From positions 6,194,001 through 6,258,000 of the forward strand of contig CP020563.1 of the NCBI GenBank assembly GCA_002082585.1: a stretch of 64,000 nt of DNA, in the 5' to 3' direction. This document shows, one piece after another, positions 51,409 through 62,534 of this stretch (position 1 is the stretch's first letter; each line of letters begins with the position of its first letter). Below the pieces are notes generated by a model. That model was not told the DNA's origin. It saw only the letters and a list, made by a program, of their open reading frames with translations, and did no database searches. This DNA is from Kitasatospora albolonga (GTDB lineage: Bacteria > Actinomycetota > Actinomycetes > Streptomycetales > Streptomycetaceae). A program made the position numbers and the translations under genes.

Positions 51409-54400
51409 GTGGCTAAGGTCCGGGTATACGAACTCGCCAAGGAGTTCGGCGTCGAGAGCAAGGTCGTCATGGCCAAGCTCCAAGAACTCGGTGAATTCGT
51501 CCGTTCGGCGTCCTCGACGATCGAGGCGCCGGTTGTGCGCAAGTTGACCGACGCACTGCAGGGACCCGGCGGCAACGCCGGAAAGTCCGCTGCCAAGCCG
51601 GGCGCGCCCCGCAAGGCGACGCCCGCGAAGCCCGCAGCGCCCTCCCCGGCCGCTGCGGCACGTCCCGCTGCCCCGAAGCCCGGCGCACCGGCCCCCAAGC
51701 CGGCCGCTGCCGAGGCCCCGGAGACCAGCACCCCCGCGGCGCCCTCCGCGCCGTCGGCGGGCCCCCGTCCGGGCCCGAAGCCCGCGCCGAAGGCGGCCCC
51801 GGTGACCCCGGTCCCGGCCGCCGAGTTCTCGGCTCCGGCTCCGGCCCCCGAGCGTCCGGCCGCCCCGCGGCCCACGGGCGCAACCCCCGGCCCGCGTCCC
51901 ACCCCCGCCCGTCCGGCTCCGGCCGGCGGCCAGCGCGACGGTGGAGCGCGTGACGGCGGCCAGCGCGGTGGCGAGCGTGGCGGCGACCGCCCCGCACGTC
52001 CCGCCGGTCAGGGCGCCCCGCGCCCCGGCGGCGCCCGTCCGGCCGGTCCCCGTCCGGGCAACAACCCCTTCACCTCCGGCGGTTCCACCGGCATGGCGCG
52101 CCCCTCGGCGCCCCGTCCCGGCGGTGCCCCGCGCCCCGGTGGCGGCCAGGAGCGCCCCGGCGCCCCGCGTCCCCAGGGCGGCCCCGGCGGCGCCCCGCGT
52201 CCGCAGGGCGGTCAGGGTCAGGGCGGTGCCCGTCCCACTCCGGGCGGCATGCCCCGCCCGCAGGCTCCGCGTCCCGGCGGCGGCCCCGCCGGTAACCGCC
52301 CCAACCCGGGCATGATGCCGCAGCGTCCCGCTGCCGGACCGCGCCCCGGTCCCGGCGGTGGCGGCCGTGGCCCCGGTGCCGGCGGTCGTCCCGGCGGCGG
52401 TGCCGGTCGTCCCGGTGGCGGCGGCGGCTTCGCCGGTCGTCCCGGTGGCGGCGGTGGCGGCGGCTTCGCAGGCCGTCCGGCCGGTCCCGGCGGTGGCGGC
52501 GGCGGTGCCGGTCGTCCCGGTGGCGGCGGCGGCTTCGGCGGCCGTCCCGGCTTCGGCGGTCGTCCGGGTGGTCCCGGCGGCCGCGGTGGCACGCAGGGTG
52601 CGTTCGGCCGTCCCGGCGGTCCGGCGCGTCGTGGCCGCAAGTCGAAGCGGCAGAGGCGCCAGGAGTACGAGGCCATGCAGGCCCCGTCCGTCGGCGGCGT
52701 GATGCTGCCCCGCGGCAACGGACAGGCCGTCCGGCTGTCGCGCGGTGCCTCCCTCACCGACTTCGCGGAGAAGATCAACGCCAACCCGGCGTCGCTCGTC
52801 GCCGTGATGATGAACCTCGGCGAGATGGTCACGGCCACGCAGTCGGTCTCCGACGAGACGCTGAAGCTCCTCGCCGAGGAGATGAACTACGTCCTGGAGA
52901 TCGTCAGCCCGGAGGAGGAGGACCGCGAGCTGCTCGAGTCCTTCGACATCGAGTTCGGCGAGGACGAGGGCGGCGAAGAGGCACTGGTCTCCCGTCCGCC
53001 GGTCGTGACCGTCATGGGTCACGTCGACCACGGTAAGACCCGGCTCCTCGACGCGATCCGCAAGACCAACGTGGTCGCGGGCGAGGCCGGTGGCATCACC
53101 CAGCACATCGGTGCCTACCAGGTCACGACGGACGTCAACGACGAAGAGCGCAAGATCACCTTCATCGACACCCCGGGTCACGAGGCGTTCACCGCCATGC
53201 GTGCTCGTGGTGCGAAGTCGACCGACATCGCGATCCTCGTGGTGGCGGCCAACGACGGTGTGATGCCCCAGACGATCGAGGCGCTGAACCACGCCAAGGC
53301 GGCCGAGGTGCCGATCGTGGTCGCGGTCAACAAGATCGACGTCGAGGGCGCCGACCCGACCAAGGTGCGCGGTCAGCTCACCGAGTTCGGTCTGGTGGCC
53401 GAGGAGTACGGCGGCGACACCATGTTCGTCGACATCTCCGCCAAGCAGGGCCTCAACATCGAGGCGCTCCTGGAGGCCGTCGTCCTCACCGCCGACGCCT
53501 CGCTCGACCTGCGGGCCAACCCGAACCAGGACGCGCAGGGTATTGCGATCGAGTCCCACCTCGACCGCGGTCGCGGTGCCGTCTCGACCGTCCTGGTCCA
53601 GCGCGGAACGCTGCGCATCGGCGACACGATGGTCGTGGGCGACGCCTACGGCCGGGTGCGCGCCATGCTCGACGACAACGGTCAGAACGTGCAGGAAGCG
53701 GGTCCCTCGACCCCCGTCCTGGTGCTCGGTCTCACCAACGTCCCGGGCGCAGGCGACAACTTCCTGGTCGTCGACGAGGACCGTACGGCCCGTCAGATCG
53801 CCGAGAAGCGTGCCGCCCGCGAGCGCAACGCCAACTTCGCCCGCAAGGGTGTCCGGTTCTCCCTGGAGAACCTGGACGAGGCGCTCAAGGCCGGTCTGGT
53901 CCAGGAGCTCAACCTCATCATCAAGGGCGACGCGTCCGGTTCGGTGGAGGCTCTCGAGTCCTCGCTGCTCCAGCTCGACGTCGGTGAAGAGGTCGACATC
54001 CGGGTCCTGCACCGTGGTGTGGGTGCGGTCACCGAGTCGGACATCAACCTGGCGACCGGTTCCGACGCCATCGTGATCGGCTTCAACGTGCGCGCCGCAG
54101 GGCGTGCCGAGCAGATGGCCGAGCGCGAGGGCGTGGACGTCCGGTACTACTCGGTCATCTACCAGGCGATCGAAGAGATCGAAGCGGCCCTCAAGGGCAT
54201 GCTCAAGCCGGAGTACGAAGAGGTCGAGCTCGGTACGGCGGAGATCCGCGAGATCTTCCGCTCGTCCAAGCTGGGCAACATCGCCGGTGTGCTGGTCCGC
54301 TCCGGCGAGGTCAAGCGCAACACCAAGGCGCGCCTGCTGCGCGATGGCAAGGTCATCGCGGAGAACCTCAACATCTCCGGTCTGCGCCGCTTCAAGGACG

Positions 54401-54516
54401 ACGTCACCGAGATCCGCGAAGGCTTCGAGGGCGGTATCAACCTCGGAAACTTCAACGACATCAAGATCGACGACGTCATCGCGACGTACGAGATGCGCGA
54501 GAAGCCGCGAGGCTGA
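51409..54516 (+). CDS. infB: Translation initiation factor IF-2
   Basis: A 1035-residue GTPase that positions initiator tRNA on the 30S subunit. Residues 1-50 form an IF2-N domain ([26 protein letters not shown]); about 55-420 is a low-complexity Ala/Pro then Gly/Arg/Pro linker; a second IF2-N domain and the G domain follow (GHVDHGKT at 537-544, [12 protein letters not shown]). C-terminal beta-barrel and tRNA-binding domains complete it. The long linker is typical of actinomycetes. GTG start with AAAAGGAG. Confidence 0.97.
52060..52640 (+). repeat. Gly/Arg/Pro repeat region within infB
   Basis: The coding sequence repeats units translating to [10 protein letters not shown] and GRPGG variants many times, with matching DNA repeats of GGTCGTCCCGGTGGCGGC type. 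This block is prone to slippage and length variation; it remains in frame here. Confidence 0.85.
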
Positions 54517-54575
54517 TCCGCAGGGTTCGAGGAGCGTTCCGGGGGACCATCCCCCGGTCCGCTCCCACCACGGTC

Positions 54576-54615
54576 GGGGCCGGTCGACGGGTCGTAATTT
54601 CCGTCGATCGGCCCC
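54576..54615 (+). terminator. Hairpin after infB
   Basis: Fifteen-base arms with one G-U pair and a 10-base loop, 60 bases after the infB stop, likely reducing readthrough into ylxP-rbfA-truB. Confidence 0.65.
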
Positions 54616-54695
54616 GGCCGTTCCGGTACGGTTCTGCTGTCCCCGCCAAGCTCTGGCGGGGCACGAACCCGAACCGGCGGGACATCCGGACACAC

Positions 54696-54989
54696 ATGTA
54701 TGTGGGGACCCTGTCCTTCGATCTGCTCCTCGGCGACGTACGGTCGTTGAAGGAGAAACGCTCCGTCGTCCGTCCGATCGTCGCCGAACTCCAGCGCAAG
54801 TACGCGGTGAGTGCGGCGGAGACGGGCGGGCAGGATCTCCACCGCAGGGCCGAGATCGGCCTCGCCGTGGTCTCCGGTGACACCGGACATCTGACGGACG
54901 TGCTGGACCGGTGCGAGCGGCTGGTCGCCGCCCGCCCCGAGGTGGAGCTGCTGTCGGTGAGACGGCGGCTGCACAGTGACGAAGACTGA
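54696..54989 (+). CDS. ylxP: DUF503 (YlxP-like) protein
   Basis: A 97-residue protein with the DUF503 ferredoxin-like pattern: [51 protein letters not shown]. The family is fixed between infB and rbfA and is linked to ribosome function, but its exact role is unknown. Its final codons precede the rbfA start. Confidence 0.9.
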
Positions 54990-55026
54990 CACGCAAGCGA
55001 ACACCAGAAGGAAGAGTGACGGACCG

Positions 55027-55503
55027 GTGACCGACAACGCGCGGGCCCGCAAGCTGGCCGATCGCATCCAGGTCGTGGTCGCGGAGACCCTGGACCGGCG
55101 AATCAAAGATCCGCGGCTGGGATTCGTGACGATCACGGACGCCCGGGTCACCGGCGACCTGCGGGAGGCCACGGTCTTCTACACGGTCTACGGCGACGAC
55201 GAGGAGCGCGCGGCCTCCGCCGCCGCGCTGGAGAGCGCCAAGGGCGTGCTCCGCTCCGAGGTCGGCCGGCAGACCGGGGTCCGGTTCACGCCGACCCTGG
55301 CCTTCGTCCCGGACGCCCTCCCGGACAACGCCCGCACCATCGAGGACCTCCTCGACAAGGCGCGCGCCAAGGACGCGCAGGTGCGCGAGGTCTCCACGGG
55401 CGCGACGTACGCCGGGGACGCCGACCCGTACCGCAAGCCCGAGGACGACGAGAACGAGACCGACGGACCCTCCGAGAAGAACGAGGGCCCGGCCTCCGCA
55501 TGA
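55027..55503 (+). CDS. rbfA: 30S ribosome-binding factor RbfA
   Basis: A 158-residue KH-fold assembly factor for 16S rRNA 5'-end maturation. The core ([50 protein letters not shown]) is complete; the C-terminal 45 residues are acidic and disordered. GTG at 55027 (VTDNARARK) begins homology; an earlier GTG at 54976, inside ylxP, would add 17 residues. The stop overlaps truB by ATGA. Confidence 0.92.
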
Positions 55504-56402
55504 CCGAGCAGCAGACCACCACGCCGGACGGCCTTGTCATCGTCGACAAGCCGTCCGGCTTCACTTCGCACGACGTCGTGGCCAAGATGCGCGGCATCGC
55601 CCGCACCCGCCGGGTCGGCCACGCCGGAACGCTGGACCCGATGGCGACCGGAGTCCTCGTGCTCGGGGTCCAGCGGGCCACCAAGCTCCTCGGCCACCTC
55701 GCGCTGACGGAGAAGGAGTACCTGGGCACCATCCGGCTCGGCCAGGACACCGTCACCGACGACGCCGAGGGCGAGATCACCTCCTCCACCGACGCGTCCG
55801 GTGTGACCCGTGAGGGCATCGACGCCGGAGTGGCGGCCCTGACCGGCGCGATCATGCAGGTCCCGTCCAAGGTCAGCGCCATCAAGATCGACGGCAAGCG
55901 GTCCTACGCGCGGGTGCGCGGCGGCGAGGAGTTCGAGATCCCGGCCCGCCCGGTGACCGTCTCCTCCTTCCGTGTCTACGACGTCCGCGAGGCCGTCGCG
56001 GAGGACGGCACCCCCGTCCTCGACCTGGTCGTCTCCGTCGTCTGCTCCTCGGGGACGTACATCCGCGCCCTCGCCCGCGACCTCGGCGCCGGACTCGGCG
56101 TCGGCGGCCACCTCACCGCGCTGCGCCGCACCCGCGTCGGCCCCTACGGACTGGACGCGGCCCGCACGCTCGACCAGCACAAGGAGGAGCTGACGGTCAT
56201 GCCGGTCGCCGAGGCCGCCGCGTCCGCCTTCCCGCGGTGGGACGTGGACGAGAAGCGCGCCAAGCTGCTCCTCAACGGCGTACGGCTGGACATGCCGACG
56301 TACCCGCCGGGGCCGGTCGCGGTCTTCGGGCCGGACGGGGCGTTCCTCGTGCTGGTGGAGGAGGAGAAGGGCAAGGCCAAGAGCCTCGCGGTCTTCGCCT
56401 GA
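55500..56402 (+). CDS. truB: tRNA pseudouridine-55 synthase
   Basis: A 300-residue enzyme making pseudouridine at U55 in the T-loop of tRNA. The catalytic Asp is D46 in [16 protein letters not shown]; the substrate-binding [31 protein letters not shown] and [15 protein letters not shown] motifs are intact, with a C-terminal PUA-like domain (KRAKLLLNG). Translationally coupled to rbfA. Confidence 0.96.
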
Positions 56403-56449
56403 CCCCTGGGCCCTGCCCCCGACTTCTGGCTCCTGGCTCCTGGATTCCT

Positions 56450-56490
56450 GTGGAGCGGGCACCCACCCCCCAACCGGGTGCCCGCTCCAC
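56450..56490 (+). terminator. Hairpin terminator after truB
   Basis: Perfect 15-base arms with an 11-base loop, 48 bases after the truB stop; it separates the translation operon from the large NTPase gene. Confidence 0.83.
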
Positions 56491-56638
56491 CTTCCCCACC
56501 CCCGGACCATCCCTGCTCCGTCCAGGTCACGGCTATTCACCCCATTGGACGGGCGCTCGGAGTGAATACCGGGGGCGCGGGGGGCGCTTTCGCCGTCCGC
56601 GCTACTGCCTGCGATCACCGGCGGCCTACCGTCGGACC

Positions 56639-59600
56639 ATGGGCAGTGGGGACCGGTCGACGCTGGTAAGAATCTGTGATCAGGCCGGCCGGCCGCGGGG
56701 GACGGGCTTCGTCGCGGACGACCGGGGCACGGTCGTCACCGCCCACCAGGCCGTCGCCGCCCCGGGCCCGTACGTTCTGCGCGGCACCGGAGGCCGCACC
56801 TGCTCCGTCGGCCCCGACGACATCACCGCCCTCCCCGCCCTCGGCCTCGCCCTGCTGCGTACGGGAGGGTCCGGGACCCTCGGCGTGGAGCCGCTGCCCA
56901 TCGCCGTACGGGAGCGGATCGAGCCCGGACGGTACGTCGGGATCGCCGCCCACGGCCGCCGGGAGGCCCGGGTCCTCGGTACGGCCCCCGCCACCTACAC
57001 CGCCCCGGACGGCCGCGGCCACCCCGTCCGGGCCGCCCTGGAGCTGGCCCTCGGCACCGACGGGCGCGACGCCCTGCGCTCGGGCGGCGCGGCGATCGGG
57101 GGACCGGTCACCGACCCGGCCACGGGCGCGGTCCTCGGCCTCCTGTGCACCGCCCTCACCACCCCGTACGAGGCCGCCGGGCTCGCCCTGCCCCTCCCGC
57201 GCGGCGCCGACGCCGGTCTCGACGCCCTCCTCGTACGCAACGCCACCGCCGCCCCCGCCTACGGCCCCGACCTCAACCTCGCCGGGGTCCTCCAGCTCAC
57301 CGCCACCTCCGTCGGCTCGGCGGACGGCCCCAAAGCCCGCACCGCACCGGTCGAGCGCGAGGACATCCACGCGGAGTTCGCCGCCTTCGAAGCCGGTACG
57401 GGCACGGTCCTGGGCCTCGTCGGCGGACCCGGCACCGGCCGCACCACCGAGCTCGCCGCCCTCGCCGCCCGCCGGGCCGACGGCAAGGCACCCGCCCCCA
57501 CCCTCTGGCTGCGCGGCGCCGACCTGCTGGCCGACGACACCTCGATCGCCGACGCGGCGGACCGTACGCTGACCCGTTCGGCCCGGATCATCAGCGCGGC
57601 CGGGGCCCCCGGCGACATGGCCACCGCCACGGCGGACCGGATCGCCGCTCTCGCCGCCGACGCGGGCCACCCGCTGCTCGTCGTCCTGGACGGCCCCGAG
57701 GAGATGCCGCCGCTCCTGGCCCACCGGCTCGCGGAGTGGACGGCGGGTACCGCCACCTGGCTGCGGGAGCACGGTGTCCGGCTCGTCGTCGCCTGCCGCC
57801 CCGAGCACTGGGAGACCGCCGGGACCCTCTACCCGCCCGGCGCCCTGCACCGCCCCCACCGGCCCGCCCGGGGGCTCCCGCCGTCCCTGCGCCTGACCGA
57901 CCTCACCTCCGCACAGGCAGACCGGGCCAAGGAGCTCCTCGGCATCCCGCCGCACGCCCTCGCCCCCGGCCACGACCGCCACCCGCTCACCCTGCGGCTG
58001 CTGGCCGAGGTCCGCGAGGCCCTGCCGCCCGGGGTCCCCGGCCGCCCCGACACCGAGGACGTGTTCGGCGCCCACCTGGACCTCATGTGCGTGCGCATCG
58101 CGGTCCGCATCGCGGCCGCCGCCGGTGAACAGCCCCGGGGCACCGCCGTACGCAGGCTGGCCGCCCGGGTCGCGGGCCAGGTCCACGAGGCGGCCCGGCG
58201 CTGTCTGGGCCCGGGCCAGGGGGAGCTGGACCGGGAGGCGTTCGAGGAGATCTTCCCCTGGCGCACGGGGTGGGCCTCGGCCGTGCTGACGGAGGGGCTC
58301 CTGGTCCCCGCCGGGGCCGGATACCGCTTCGCCCACGAGGAGCTGGGCGACTGGGTGCAGGGCGCCCACCTGGACCTGGACGCGGCCCTGCGCTCCCTGG
58401 TGCACCGCTGGCACCGGGGGAGCGGGCAGCGGGCGGCCCGGGGGCGCGGCGGGCAGGACCCCCGGGCCGCCGGGGAGCTCGGGAGCACCGGGGCGCCCCA
58501 CCCCGCCGATGAGCCCCGCTCCCTCCCCGTGCCCCGGCACCGGATCGGCCCGGTGATCCAGGCGATGGTGCTCCTCGGCCGCCGCCAGGGCACGGCCGCG
58601 CTCGCGCACCGGATGGCCGACCTGATCGAGGCGCTGGACCGGCTGTGGGCCGACGACGGACACCGCGAGGCAGGACACGGGGACAGCGGGAAGAGGGACG
58701 GGGATGAGGGACGCCCCGTAGGGCACCGCCGTGAAGGCCCCCGGGACGAGGACGCCGCCTGGTGGGCGGCTCACCTCCTCGGCGGCAGCCTGCTCCGGGT
58801 GCCCGACGCCCGCCCGTATCTCGGCGTCCTCCGGGTCCTCGCCGGGCGCATCACCCGGAGCTCGGCCGCCGCCGCCACCGGGGGACCGGCGGGCCCGGGG
58901 GCGTACGGGGAGTTCGGGCCCTGGTTCTGGCGGCGGCTCCGGCTGCCCGAGGAGGACCGGATCGACCTGCTCCGCCGTCTGGTCCCCGCCGACGGGGTGC
59001 CCCGCACCGACGGAGACGAGCGCTACCTCGACGCGGTGGCCCGCCGCCTGAGCTACGACGCCCCCACCGTGCAGCCGCTGCTCTGCCGCTGGTTCACCGA
59101 CGAGCGCCCGCTGCTGATCGGCGGCCCCGACGCACCGGACCCGGAGCTGCGCCCCACCGTGGCCGCCGCCGCGCAGGCCCTGCTCCATGCCCGCCGGGAC
59201 CTGGACCCGGACGGCCTCACCGACGCGCTGATCGCCACCCCGCACACCCGGGCCGGTGAGCTGCTCGCCGCCCTCGCCGAGGACGAGCCCACCGCGCTCT
59301 GCCGGGCCGTCGAGCGCTGGGCCCGGGACGAGGACCGCCCGGCCCGCCGCTCCGCCGCCGCCCGGTACGCCGGACTCCTCCAGCCCCGGATCACCGCCGA
59401 GGGGGACCGGGCCCTCCTGCGCTCCGCCGCCGTGGAGCTGCTCGCCCGCCCCGATGACGCCGGGCTCCACGCCGCCGCCCTCACCCTCCTCGTCCAGGAC
59501 CCGCAGACCCGGGGCCGCCACCTCCCGCAGGCCCTCCGCCTCTTCGCGCACGGCGACCCCCGGCTCCCCGTGGAGCTCCTCGCCGAGGTCTTCCCCTTTC

Positions 59601-60325
59601 ACCCCGAGCCGGTCCTCGCCGCCCTCCGCGCCCGCCTGGCCCACCCCGGCGACGGCGCGGCGGCGGTGCTGCGGAGCCTCGCCGGGCTCGACACGCCCGC
59701 GCTCGCGCTGCACGTCGCCGGGCTCGTACGCGAGTACATCGACGCCCACCCCGAGGACGGCACGCACGCGGCGGAGTACGTGGACCTCCGCCTCGAACAC
59801 GGCCCCGCCGCCCGCGCCCTGCTCCTCCCGCTGGTCACCGGGCTGCTCCGGGACCGCCCCGCCCCGCCGCCGGTCCGTGCCGCGCTGGCCCGGGTGCTCG
59901 CCGGGGCCGGGTCCGCCGCGTCCCGGCCGCTGCGGGCCGAGCTGCTGGAGGTCCTGCTGGAGTTCGAGCAGGTCACGGGCCGGGACCCGGATGTGCTGGA
60001 CGCCCTCCTCCAAGCGGCGGCGGGAGGGGCGGGGACCCGCCCCGAGGTCCGCACGCGCGCGCTCGTCCACCGCACCGGCATGCTCCTCGTCCGCACCCCG
60101 GAGGGCGCCGCCCGCTTCGACCGCCGCCTGGTCGAACTCGCCCGGGACGTGCCCGGATTCGCCGCCCTCGTCATCCGCTGGCTCACCGACGCCCCGCAGG
60201 AGTGGGCGGCGGTGGTCGGCCCCAGCGCCCGGCGCACCGTGGAGGCGTTGGAGACATCACGCCGGGCGATGCCGATGCCGATGCAGGCGGCGGGGCGTGA
60301 GCATGGCAGTCTTAGACCTGCGTAA
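56639..60325 (+). CDS. STAND/NLR-like NTPase with degenerate trypsin-like N-terminal domain
   Basis: A 1228-residue multidomain protein. Residues 1 to about 200 follow a trypsin-like (S1/HtrA-type) fold: GTGFVADDRGTVVTAHQAV keeps a His (H36), but the expected Asp of DLALLR is G69 (GLALLR) and the expected Ser of G(D/M)SGGPV is I153 (GAAIGGPV), so it should be inactive. A STAND-type NTPase follows: P-loop GGPGTGRTTEL (262-272), Walker B LLVVLDGPEEMP (D351), VVACRPEHWE, and the winged-helix-like end YRFAHEELGDWVQGAHL (~562). The last ~600 residues are HEAT/ARM-like helical repeats. Start ATG 56639 begins the fold. It may be a sensor-type regulator; no partner effector gene adjoins it. Confidence 0.78.
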   Translation: MGSGDRSTLVRICDQAGRPRGTGFVADDRGTVVTAHQAVAAPGPYVLRGTGGRTCSVGPDDITALPALGLALLRTGGSGTLGVEPLPIAVRERIEPGRYVGIAAHGRREARVLGTAPATYTAPDGRGHPVRAALELALGTDGRDALRSGGAAIGGPVTDPATGAVLGLLCTALTTPYEAAGLALPLPRGADAGLDALLVRNATAAPAYGPDLNLAGVLQLTATSVGSADGPKARTAPVEREDIHAEFAAFEAGTGTVLGLVGGPGTGRTTELAALAARRADGKAPAPTLWLRGADLLADDTSIADAADRTLTRSARIISAAGAPGDMATATADRIAALAADAGHPLLVVLDGPEEMPPLLAHRLAEWTAGTATWLREHGVRLVVACRPEHWETAGTLYPPGALHRPHRPARGLPPSLRLTDLTSAQADRAKELLGIPPHALAPGHDRHPLTLRLLAEVREALPPGVPGRPDTEDVFGAHLDLMCVRIAVRIAAAAGEQPRGTAVRRLAARVAGQVHEAARRCLGPGQGELDREAFEEIFPWRTGWASAVLTEGLLVPAGAGYRFAHEELGDWVQGAHLDLDAALRSLVHRWHRGSGQRAARGRGGQDPRAAGELGSTGAPHPADEPRSLPVPRHRIGPVIQAMVLLGRRQGTAALAHRMADLIEALDRLWADDGHREAGHGDSGKRDGDEGRPVGHRREGPRDEDAAWWAAHLLGGSLLRVPDARPYLGVLRVLAGRITRSSAAAATGGPAGPGAYGEFGPWFWRRLRLPEEDRIDLLRRLVPADGVPRTDGDERYLDAVARRLSYDAPTVQPLLCRWFTDERPLLIGGPDAPDPELRPTVAAAAQALLHARRDLDPDGLTDALIATPHTRAGELLAALAEDEPTALCRAVERWARDEDRPARRSAAARYAGLLQPRITAEGDRALLRSAAVELLARPDDAGLHAAALTLLVQDPQTRGRHLPQALRLFAHGDPRLPVELLAEVFPFHPEPVLAALRARLAHPGDGAAAVLRSLAGLDTPALALHVAGLVREYIDAHPEDGTHAAEYVDLRLEHGPAARALLLPLVTGLLRDRPAPPPVRAALARVLAGAGSAASRPLRAELLEVLLEFEQVTGRDPDVLDALLQAAAGGAGTRPEVRTRALVHRTGMLLVRTPEGAARFDRRLVELARDVPGFAALVIRWLTDAPQEWAAVVGPSARRTVEALETSRRAMPMPMQAAGREHGSLRPA

Positions 60326-60368
60326 TGGACACACACACGTACACAGGTTCGGGCGAGGAGCGGTCACA

Positions 60369-61325
60369 GTGCAGCGCTGGCGTGGCTTGGAGGACATCCC
60401 CCAGGACTGGGGACGCAGCGTCGTCACCATCGGCTCCTACGACGGCGTGCACCGCGGACACCAGCTGATCATCGGCCGGGCCGTCGAGCGCGCCCGTGAG
60501 CTCGGCGTTCCGTCCGTCGTGGTGACCTTCGACCCGCACCCCAGCGAGGTCGTCCGCCCCGGCAGCCACCCGCCGCTGCTCGCCCCGCACCACCGCCGCG
60601 CCGAACTCATGGCGGACCTCGGGGTGGACGCGGTGCTGATCCTGCCGTTCACCGCCGAGTTCTCGAAGCTGTCGCCCGCCGACTTCATCGTGAAGGTCCT
60701 CGTCGACAAGCTGCACGCGAAGGCCGTCATCGAGGGCCCCAACTTCCGCTTCGGCCACAAGGCCGCGGGGAACGTGGCCCTGCTGACCGAGCTGGGCGCC
60801 ACCTACGACTACACCGTCGAGGTCATCGACCTGTTCGTGACCGGTGCGGCGGGCGGCGGCCAGCCGTTCTCCTCCACCCTCACCCGCCGTCTGGTCTCCG
60901 AGGGCGATGTCGCCGGGGCCGCCGAGATCCTCGGCCGCCCGCACCGCGTCGAGGGCATCGTGGTGCGCGGTGCCCAGCGCGGCCGTGAGCTGGGCTTCCC
61001 CACGGCCAACGTGGAGACCCTCCCGCACACCGCGATCCCCGCCGACGGCGTCTACGCGGGGTGGCTGGAGGTGGACGGCGAGTCGATGCCCGCCGCGATC
61101 TCGGTCGGCACCAACCCGCAGTTCGACGGCACCGAGCGGACGGTGGAGGCGTACGCGATCGACCGCGTCGGCCTCGATCTGTACGGGCTGCACGTGGCCG
61201 TCGAATTCCTCGCGTACGTCCGAGGGATGCTGAAGTTCGACACGATCGACGACCTCCTGGTGGCCATGGCCGCCGATGTGAAGCGGTGCAGCGAGCTGGT
61301 CGCCGCGTACGACCGTACCCACTGA
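60369..61325 (+). CDS. ribF: Bifunctional riboflavin kinase/FAD synthetase
   Basis: A 318-residue enzyme making FMN and FAD from riboflavin. The N-terminal adenylyltransferase has TIGSYDGVHRGHQLII and FDPHPSEVV; the C-terminal kinase has GRELGFPTANV and the GVYAGW strand. GTG 60369 follows GAGGAG by eight bases and yields MQRWRGLEDIPQDWG; the frame is open upstream inside the NTPase gene. It supplies cofactor for the flavoenzymes of this window, though no direct link is implied. Confidence 0.95.
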   Translation: MQRWRGLEDIPQDWGRSVVTIGSYDGVHRGHQLIIGRAVERARELGVPSVVVTFDPHPSEVVRPGSHPPLLAPHHRRAELMADLGVDAVLILPFTAEFSKLSPADFIVKVLVDKLHAKAVIEGPNFRFGHKAAGNVALLTELGATYDYTVEVIDLFVTGAAGGGQPFSSTLTRRLVSEGDVAGAAEILGRPHRVEGIVVRGAQRGRELGFPTANVETLPHTAIPADGVYAGWLEVDGESMPAAISVGTNPQFDGTERTVEAYAIDRVGLDLYGLHVAVEFLAYVRGMLKFDTIDDLLVAMAADVKRCSELVAAYDRTH

Positions 61326-61373
61326 CGCCCCCTTCCCCGCGCGTTCCGGCCGACGGCGGCGGATGCTGGCAGG

Positions 61374-62534
61374 GTGCGTGACATCCTGCCCGGCCTCCGG
61401 GCCCGCTGCGCCGCCGGTACGCCGCTCGCCCTGGCGACCGTCGTCGCCGTGCACGGCAGCGCGCCCCGCGACCCGGGCGCGGTCATGGCCGTCGACCGGG
61501 CGGGGGCCGTGCTCGGCAGTGTCTCCGGCGGCTGTGTCGAGGGCGATGTGTACGAGGTCGCCCGTGAGGTGCTCGCCGGGGCGGCGCCGCGCGTGGTGGC
61601 GTACGGGATCAGCGACGAGGAGGCGTTCGGCGTCGGGCTGACGTGCGGCGGCACGATCGAGGTGCTGGTGCGCGCGTACGTCTCCGAAGCCGAGCTGGCC
61701 GGTCTCGCGGCGCTGCTCGACCTGATCGCCGCCGACCGGCCGGTCGCGGAGGCCACCGTCCTGTCGGGCGCGGCGGAGACCGGCGCGCGGATGGTGGTCC
61801 GCCCCGCCGACGTACACGGCACTCTTGGTACGGAAGGGCTCGACGCGGCCGTCACGGACGACGCCCGGGGGCTGCTGGAGCAGGGCCTCACCGGCATCCA
61901 GTGGTACGGGGCGCACGGGCAGCGCCGGATGGCGGAGGTGTCCGTCTTCGTCCGGACGTACGCCCCGCCGCCCCGGATGCTCGTCTTCGGCGCCATCGAC
62001 CACGCGGCGGCCACCGCCCGCATCGGCTCCTTCCTCGGCTACCGGGTCACCGTCTGCGACGCCCGCCCCGCCTTCGCCACCCGGGAACGCTTCCCGACGG
62101 CCGACGAGGTGGTGTGCGCCTGGCCGCACGACTACCTGGAGGCGACCGATATCGATGCCCGTGCGGTCATCTGCGTCCTCACCCACGACCCGAAGTTCGA
62201 CGTGCCCCTGCTGGTCGCCGCGCTGCGCACCCCGGCCGCGTACATCGGGGTCATGGGCAGCCGCCGCACCCACCACGACCGCCTCGCCCGGCTCCGTGAG
62301 GCCGGAGTGGACGAGGCCCGCCTGACCCGCCTCGCCTCACCCGTGGGCCTCGACCTCGGAGCCCGTACGCCGGAGGAGACGGCGGTCTCCATCGCCGCCG
62401 AGATCATCCAGCACCGATGGGGCGGGACGGGGCGGCCGCTGGGCGAGCTGACGGGGGCGATCCACCACCGCGCGACGGCCCCGGGCGGTCCATCTCCCGC
62501 CACTCCGGCCGCAGAGCGGCCAGATTCGTGGTGA
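61374..62534 (+). CDS. XdhC/CoxI family protein
   Basis: A 386-residue protein with an N-terminal XdhC domain (LALATVVAVHGSAPRDPGAVMAV, SVSGGCVEGDVYEVA, GLTCGGTIEVLV) and a C-terminal Rossmann domain (PRMLVFGAIDHAAATARIGSFLGYRVTVCDARPAF, YIGVMGSRRTHHDRLARL). Family members insert or mature molybdenum cofactor for xanthine or CO dehydrogenases. The third canonical cysteine-containing motif is present, yet no molybdoenzyme gene is in the window. The last 131 bases overlap the convergent exporter gene. Confidence 0.88.
   Translation: MRDILPGLRARCAAGTPLALATVVAVHGSAPRDPGAVMAVDRAGAVLGSVSGGCVEGDVYEVAREVLAGAAPRVVAYGISDEEAFGVGLTCGGTIEVLVRAYVSEAELAGLAALLDLIAADRPVAEATVLSGAAETGARMVVRPADVHGTLGTEGLDAAVTDDARGLLEQGLTGIQWYGAHGQRRMAEVSVFVRTYAPPPRMLVFGAIDHAAATARIGSFLGYRVTVCDARPAFATRERFPTADEVVCAWPHDYLEATDIDARAVICVLTHDPKFDVPLLVAALRTPAAYIGVMGSRRTHHDRLARLREAGVDEARLTRLASPVGLDLGARTPEETAVSIAAEIIQHRWGGTGRPLGELTGAIHHRATAPGGPSPATPAAERPDSW

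Follow-up and report, generated by a model that had tools for sequence, protein, structure and literature searches.

The locus and the encoded protein

The window analysed here is a stretch of 64,000 nucleotides from Kitasatospora albolonga (contig CP020563.1), and the gene of interest within it is an open reading frame (ORF) at 56639-60325 that lies between truB and ribF and encodes a protein of 1228 amino acids, as the initial annotation of this DNA had described. The protein joins an HtrA-like trypsin domain to a NACHT/STAND-type nucleoside triphosphatase (NTPase) and an all-helical tail. Its protease domain has lost two of the three catalytic residues and is probably dead, while still being under purifying selection, and its NTPase carries an arginine at the P-loop lysine position that is shared by every aligned member of the family. 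Upstream of the gene lie nusA, infB, a DUF503 gene, rbfA and truB; downstream lie ribF (GTG at 60369, after a gap of 43 nt), an XdhC-like gene and, on the opposite strand, an MFS gene. The gene and the parts of its product, from the ORF list and from domain, fold and model analysis, are as follows.

56639..60325, +: putative pseudoprotease-STAND gene, 1228 amino acids, ATG start
56660..57208, +: HtrA/trypsin-fold domain, residues ~8-190 (fold and sequence comparison)
56744..56746, +: His36, in the His column of the triad
56843..56845, +: Gly69, in the Asp column of the triad
57095..57097, +: Ile153, in the Ser column of the triad
57356..58408, +: NTPase resembling NACHT/STAND, including helical and winged-helix-like segments, residues ~240-590 (fold and model comparison)
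57422..57448, +: Walker A, GGPGTGRTT, with Arg268 (57440-57442) replacing Lys
57674..57712, +: Walker B, LLVVLDGPEEMPP, with Asp351, Glu354 and Glu355
58541..60268, +: all-helical, solenoid-like tail, residues ~635-1210

Relatives were gathered at several depths. The best 80 of 109 relatives gave 78 loci (L001-L078), all from Streptomyces save one "[Kitasatospora] papulosa"; 74 of these, with four partial ones excluded, were aligned with the window protein to give 75 sequences. Protein matches from databases (the best 120 of 2515 and the best 120 of 2280) contributed 241 proteins, which together with the 74 loci form an alignment of 315 sequences in which near-duplicates are included. The structure was modelled as two separate pieces. 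Many public records, among the best 120 of the 2515 matches, label the protein "serine protease"; the residues described below suggest that this label is wrong for most members.

The protease domain and its broken triad

The N-terminal domain has the chymotrypsin double beta-barrel fold, its first strand beginning at residue 9 of the model. In the structural alignment with VIA-align every listed row was a trypsin-fold chain, and a Foldseek comparison with viral models returned mostly trypsin-fold proteases of viruses; a single phage protein, at rank 49, bore an NLR-like name. Hence the N-terminal fold is that of trypsin and not an unrelated one. Alignment with two Streptomyces HtrA proteins, using their TNHHVV, DLAVVR/DLAVLR and NPGNSGGP motifs, sets the triad columns at His36, Gly69 and Ile153, so that the replacement of Asp and Ser that the initial annotation had read from the sequence holds and the window protein lacks a His-Asp-Ser triad. 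By these residues its protease domain is probably dead.

The same is true of most of the family. Across 315 sequences the His column is His in 310, the Asp column is Gly in 243, Asp in 62, Asn in 5, Ala in 4 and Pro in 1, and the Ser column is Ile in 94, Val in 74, Ser in 73, Thr in 41, Ala in 31 and Arg in 2, with the complete triad in four sequences. The smaller alignment gives the same picture (His in 74 of 75, Asp in 20, Ser in 10, all three in two, L041 and L057). When one frame-disturbed row was excluded and sequences were reduced to 113 representatives at less than 87% identity, a single representative retained the complete triad, and a FastTree phylogeny of this set required at least 11 changes between Asp and non-Asp, at least three between Ser and non-Ser and at least three among the letters of the His column. 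An apparent mutual exclusion of Asp69 and Ser153 in the same set (36 His-Gly-Ser against one His-Asp-Ser) was not significant when only independent pairs were counted.

Intact triads in orthologues, which at other positions would have spoken against a dead triad, do exist, but in the same columns, in a few Streptomyces and in relatives from two other genera of the Streptomycetaceae, one represented by L125 and the other by the near-identical L136, L137 and L139. The domain therefore looks like a decayed protease. Other distant relatives, scored with the N-terminus of L148 excluded, likewise from Streptomycetaceae genera other than Streptomyces, have His-Gly-Ser (L120, L121, L123, L124 and L128), Tyr-Gly-Ala (L134), His-Gly-Ala (L135) and Leu-Asn-Ala (L146). 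The gene matches in L134, L139 and L148 are split over two frames, through sequencing errors or ongoing decay. Since these relatives are intact in the same columns and the wider family is HtrA, it is simplest to suppose that the family probably descends from an active protease and that its triad eroded repeatedly.

Loss of the triad has not wholly released the domain from constraint. In nine pairs without an intact-triad member the ratio of nonsynonymous to synonymous substitution rates (dN/dS, by the Nei-Gojobori method) of the protease domain is 0.15-0.50; the dead domain is thus still under purifying selection. In two pairs that include the intact-triad L057 it is 0.07 and 0.08, so that a surviving triad may go with stronger constraint. 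For the whole protein the ratio is 0.15-0.34, rising to as much as 0.61 in residues 591-705. Conservation scores are similar along the protein (protease 0.73, P-loop part 0.74, tail 0.72-0.75), with a maximum of 0.83 at residues 431-590 and a minimum of 0.66 in the linker at 600-705.

An arginine P-loop in a STAND-type NTPase

Walker B acids, a sensor CRP, a GxP-like HPL and a winged-helix His are the defining motifs of the STAND/NACHT class. All of these are present here: Asp351 and Glu354 of Walker B are found in 314 of 315 sequences, the remaining row being gapped, and conservation across the alignment extends to HPL at 448-450 and to the YRFAH histidine (566). The STAND assignment made from the sequence at the outset therefore stands, with its Walker B acids conserved. 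The Walker A lysine, by contrast, is absent. Its place is taken by Arg268 in 315 of 315 sequences, and also in all 13 rows that could be scored among the 16 carriers of a wider family sample (some of them near-copies of the database proteins), down to ~37% identity; Gly265, Gly267 and Thr270 are equally fixed.

Profile comparisons recognise this domain faintly. With E limited to 0.1, curated NACHT models matched five of 18 members, the best at 1.7e-4; the single printed score was 13.9 bits, where the cut-off is 26.7, and the window protein had no listed match; an NCBIfam scan gave only weak P-loop look-alikes. A large AAA/NACHT-like protein of one Streptomyces genome (G106; L169 3-5573, minus strand), weakly related to the NTPase and weakly matched by the family profile, has the lysine, in GEPGGGKT.

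The NTPase evolves under constraint (dN/dS 0.15-0.33 over 11 pairs). A dead site would be expected to drift, and the fixation of the arginine P-loop suggests that nucleotide binding is probably kept. Mutants of other P-loop proteins offer a guide: RecA K70R is reported to have lost its ATPase activity without wholly losing ATP binding (PMC9769622), and the hydrolysis defect reported for RAD51 K133R leads to hyperstable filaments (PMC8275761). By analogy, the NTPase of this family may behave like these K-to-R mutants.

The helical tail

The tail is known from an AlphaFold2 model (predicted local distance difference test, pLDDT, 88.2; predicted template modelling score, pTM, 0.78), and searches of Pfam and the PDB by sequence found no convincing relative of it. 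Within it lies a weak PADLOC match to OloA, which we take to be a component of Olokun, at residues 844-956 (59168-59506, +; E 0.032; 104 of 596 model positions). The window protein also matches mad8 weakly (E 0.01), and the scan of diverse members gave mad8 and PDC-M54A matches that are weaker than those to OloA. PADLOC scans of the window protein (E up to 1) and of 18 diverse members (E up to 0.1) gave no strong match to a defence model and no match to an Avs model.

A fixed site and apparently vertical inheritance

The gene occupies one site. In the 78 public loci ribF follows it in every case and truB precedes it in 73, the other five ending at a contig edge. In a sample of 30 family genomes, the window's own excluded, the gene adjoins ribF in 16 genomes from 9 of 17 genera, and truB lies on the other side in 15 of these, the contig of L119 ending before truB. 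The remaining 14 genomes lack the gene at this site, the only place examined in them, and have truB and ribF 96-356 nt apart. Within Streptomyces, a match was found in 23 of 25 genomes in one sample (one being a fragment), and in a second sample 41 of 45 genomes gave a long match; the two samples have at least two genomes in common, one of them the window's own. The window's genome has one match, so that the gene is single-copy there. None of 16 genomes sampled outside the Streptomycetaceae gave a match, and a profile search of 15 of them gave one match of 59 residues, to the protease part; a tblastn search of plasmids gave no match.

Placed on a tree of TruB, RibF and RbfA, in which several forks are weak, presence of the gene requires a minimum of seven changes in 30 rows, a pattern that fits one gain and six losses. 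Inheritance thus appears to have been vertical, at one site, with several losses. In many other Streptomycetaceae genera (for example L127, L131, L132, L138 and L140) a gap of ~1-1.4 kb that is absent in the window separates rbfA from truB and probably holds an extra gene.

Expression signals

Three DNA features surround the gene.

56450..56490, +: terminator-like hairpin behind truB, with a perfect 15-bp stem and a loop of 11 but no T run (own script)
56580..56632, +: promoter-like region with GGGGGCGCTTTC (56580-56591), GATCA, and TACCGT, a -10-like TAnnnT box (56627-56632) (own script)
60302..60318, +: CATGGCAGTCTTAGACC, a DNA-level element 50-67 nt before the ribF start that overlaps the 3' end of the gene

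The terminator that had been claimed upstream of the gene is borne out as the hairpin, though it lacks a T run: of 75 loci, 62 have a perfect stem of at least 12 bp (12-18 bp) upstream of the gene, whereas none of 75 shuffled regions does. Scans of the region for T-run terminators and sigma-70 promoters found nothing, the former missing this hairpin by its need for a T run, and Rfam gave no match in 54000-62500. The -10-like box follows the pattern CTA[ACG][CG]GT in 73 of 75 loci, a pattern that was written after the sequences had been seen. In all 73 the GGG of the GGGGGCGCTTTC block lies 43-45 nt upstream of the box, each base of GATCA (-14 to -10) is kept in 62-69 of them, and the next RTG follows the box by 6 or 7 nt in 62. 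The block is possibly the site of a regulator. The reading frame of the gene is open upstream as far as a GTG at 56237; the ATG has an equivalent in many orthologues, and the promoter-like box stops 6 nt short of it, a spacing that suggests a leaderless mRNA. High G+C content was taken to account for a long minus-strand ORF at 56615-60070 and for further antisense ORFs, which were therefore disregarded.

The element before ribF is identical in 72 of the 78 loci, variant in five and not found in one. A looser form, CATGGCANNC, precedes ribF in 11 of the 14 family loci that lack the gene (being absent from L126, L141 and L143), and hence the element more likely belongs to ribF, of which it may be a promoter or leader, or else a short upstream ORF. 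In one frame it reads ATG-GCA-GTC-TTA; TTA is a rare codon in Streptomyces. Some distant genera have the form CATGGCANGCTATAG, and looser forms occur in most of L119-L148. The description of the gene as embedded in a translation and flavin locus is consequently right as to position, but the hairpin and the promoter-like box divide it from truB, and the ribF element also exists where the gene does not.

A proposed host switch and its alternatives

The reading we favour, at roughly even confidence, is that the gene encodes a Streptomycetaceae-specific, probably cytosolic STAND switch with a pseudoprotease as its binding arm, for which a regulatory or stress role in the host would be likelier than one as an anti-phage effector. 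In such a protein the tail would hold or sense a ligand, and ATP would be bound with little or no hydrolysis, as described for the RecA and RAD51 mutants, so that the assembly state would be set by ligand and nucleotide exchange and not by rapid turnover. The former protease domain might bind peptides or proteins and, once the switch opens, recruit or mask a partner. It would have originated in an active trypsin-STAND ancestor in which catalysis became unnecessary or harmful. We prefer a host switch because neither a strong match to a defence model nor a recognised partner gene was found, the site is fixed where checked and conservation is similar across the regions of the protein.

Several observations weigh against this reading. 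The lowest protease-domain dN/dS values are those of the two intact-triad pairs, and among dead pairs values as high as 0.46 and 0.50 occur; once the triad has decayed, constraint may therefore be relaxed in part. The few His-Asp-Ser lineages may keep protease activity, in which case the term pseudoprotease would be untrue for the family as a whole. The structural match to NACHT is modest (Foldseek to NLRP9, template modelling scores 0.34/0.24), although a better one may be missing given the two-piece model and VIA-align rows that were all trypsin-fold chains, and a Walker A arginine could still allow hydrolysis in a STAND fold. OloA is the most frequent PADLOC match, found weakly in 7 of 18 diverse members (best E 1.7e-4). 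Finally, the several apparent losses indicate that the gene is not essential, and patchy loss fits a defence gene too.

These last points lead to the idea that the protein is an NLR-like anti-phage protein whose tail senses a phage product, whose STAND module oligomerises and whose trypsin-fold domain is an effector or a decoy for phage proteins. We consider this rather unlikely. Trypsin-STAND fusions and inactive trypsin domains are reported from predicted or demonstrated conflict systems (PMC7159879, PMC8195603, PMC12799240), and the apparent patchy loss across genera and the OloA, mad8 and PDC-M54A matches point the same way. The PADLOC matches are nevertheless weak, that of the window protein to OloA falling in the helical tail; the neighbours scanned, from nusA to the MFS gene, include no recognised effector or nuclease; and the site is fixed wherever both flanks could be checked, with no plasmid match, an evenly conserved tail, a single match in the own genome and apparently vertical inheritance. 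Hence the defence part of the defence or stress-sensing role first proposed finds little support. A regulator tied to its neighbours, acting in ribosome maturation or flavin supply with truB, rbfA or ribF, is distinctly improbable in our judgement. The truB-ribF position in all loci with both flanks (73 of 78 and 15 of 16) would suit it, as would the short distance to ribF, where no terminator-like site was reported by a scan that also missed the hairpin after truB; the conserved hairpin and promoter-like box, however, set the gene apart from truB, ribF may have its own start to judge by the element retained in loci without the gene, and 14 of 30 family genomes dispense with the gene at this site. 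Least probable is an active protease that has a non-classical catalytic set and is turned on by the NTPase. It would account for the near-invariant His36, for the surrounding loops (GTGF, GT..T.H, G.P), which are largely kept, and for the full triads of L125, the L136/L137/L139 group, L041 and L057, but 201 of the 315 sequences have one of Ile, Val, Ala and Arg in the Ser column and the alignment, inspected by eye, shows no alternative serine fixed near it.

A bolder extension of the host-switch reading, which we regard as unlikely, is a doubly pseudo-enzymatic receptor: an arginine P-loop holding ATP without turnover would have been fixed first and the protease would then have decayed repeatedly, leaving an ATP-locked, long-lived scaffold that serves Streptomyces development or stress and not phage defence.

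Relation to known systems

By sequence and by structure the closest solved relatives are the HtrA/Deg (S1C) serine proteases, which share the fold and the loop order. The window protein differs from them in its broken triad, its fusion to a STAND NTPase, the lack of a PDZ match in Pfam and an N-terminus in which, by eye and with no predictor used, no signal or membrane segment is seen. With NACHT/STAND and bacterial NLR-related proteins it shares the P-loop, a DGxEE Walker B, CRPE, HPL, a winged-helix-like His and a helical tail; the arginine in Walker A, the weak or absent Pfam NACHT match and the site between housekeeping genes set the family apart.

A trypsin-like domain together with a STAND or degenerate ATPase is also found in NucA-trypsin system 3, in trypsin-Avs1 of AVAST and in LypA of CARD-NLR, according to their descriptions (PMC7159879, PMC12799240, PMC13236601), and the protease-STAND fusion as a kind is already known. 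Unlike those systems, the window protein has no domain ahead of the protease, and its scanned neighbours include no nuclease or second protease. Neither an Avs model nor a metallo-beta-lactamase nuclease partner, as in AVAST, was found by PADLOC or among the neighbours (nusA, infB, DUF503, rbfA, truB, ribF, XdhC-like, MFS). A CARD-NLR (LypABC-like) assignment is disfavoured, as there is no N-terminal CARD, the trypsin strand starting at residue 9, and separate NLR or second protease genes are not among the scanned neighbours. LypA moreover is reported to need its catalytic Ser, the S262A mutant failing (PMC13236601), and the window protein lacks that Ser. Our search of the open literature found no description of an NLR-like family in which the P-loop arginine is universal, the protease has decayed repeatedly and the site between housekeeping genes is fixed; the gene family may be listed in the broad surveys of trypsin-STAND proteins (PMC7159879, PMC8195603).

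Among the top folds is MamO, an HtrA-fold pseudoprotease kept for a non-catalytic role, which is reported to differ in having Thr at the nucleophile position, metal binding and a transporter domain (PMC4794232). The window protein likewise has lost the triad while purifying selection still maintains its protease fold and, its inactivity being judged from the residues, corresponds to a bacterial pseudoprotease. What the present family seems to add is the change from protease to pseudoprotease under way within an NLR-like protein. Triads in every state, from intact through half-broken to fully broken, exist in one family at one site, so that natural variants can test the loss of catalysis, and a STAND protein whose P-loop arginine is naturally fixed would allow the need for ATP hydrolysis in switches of this kind to be tested.

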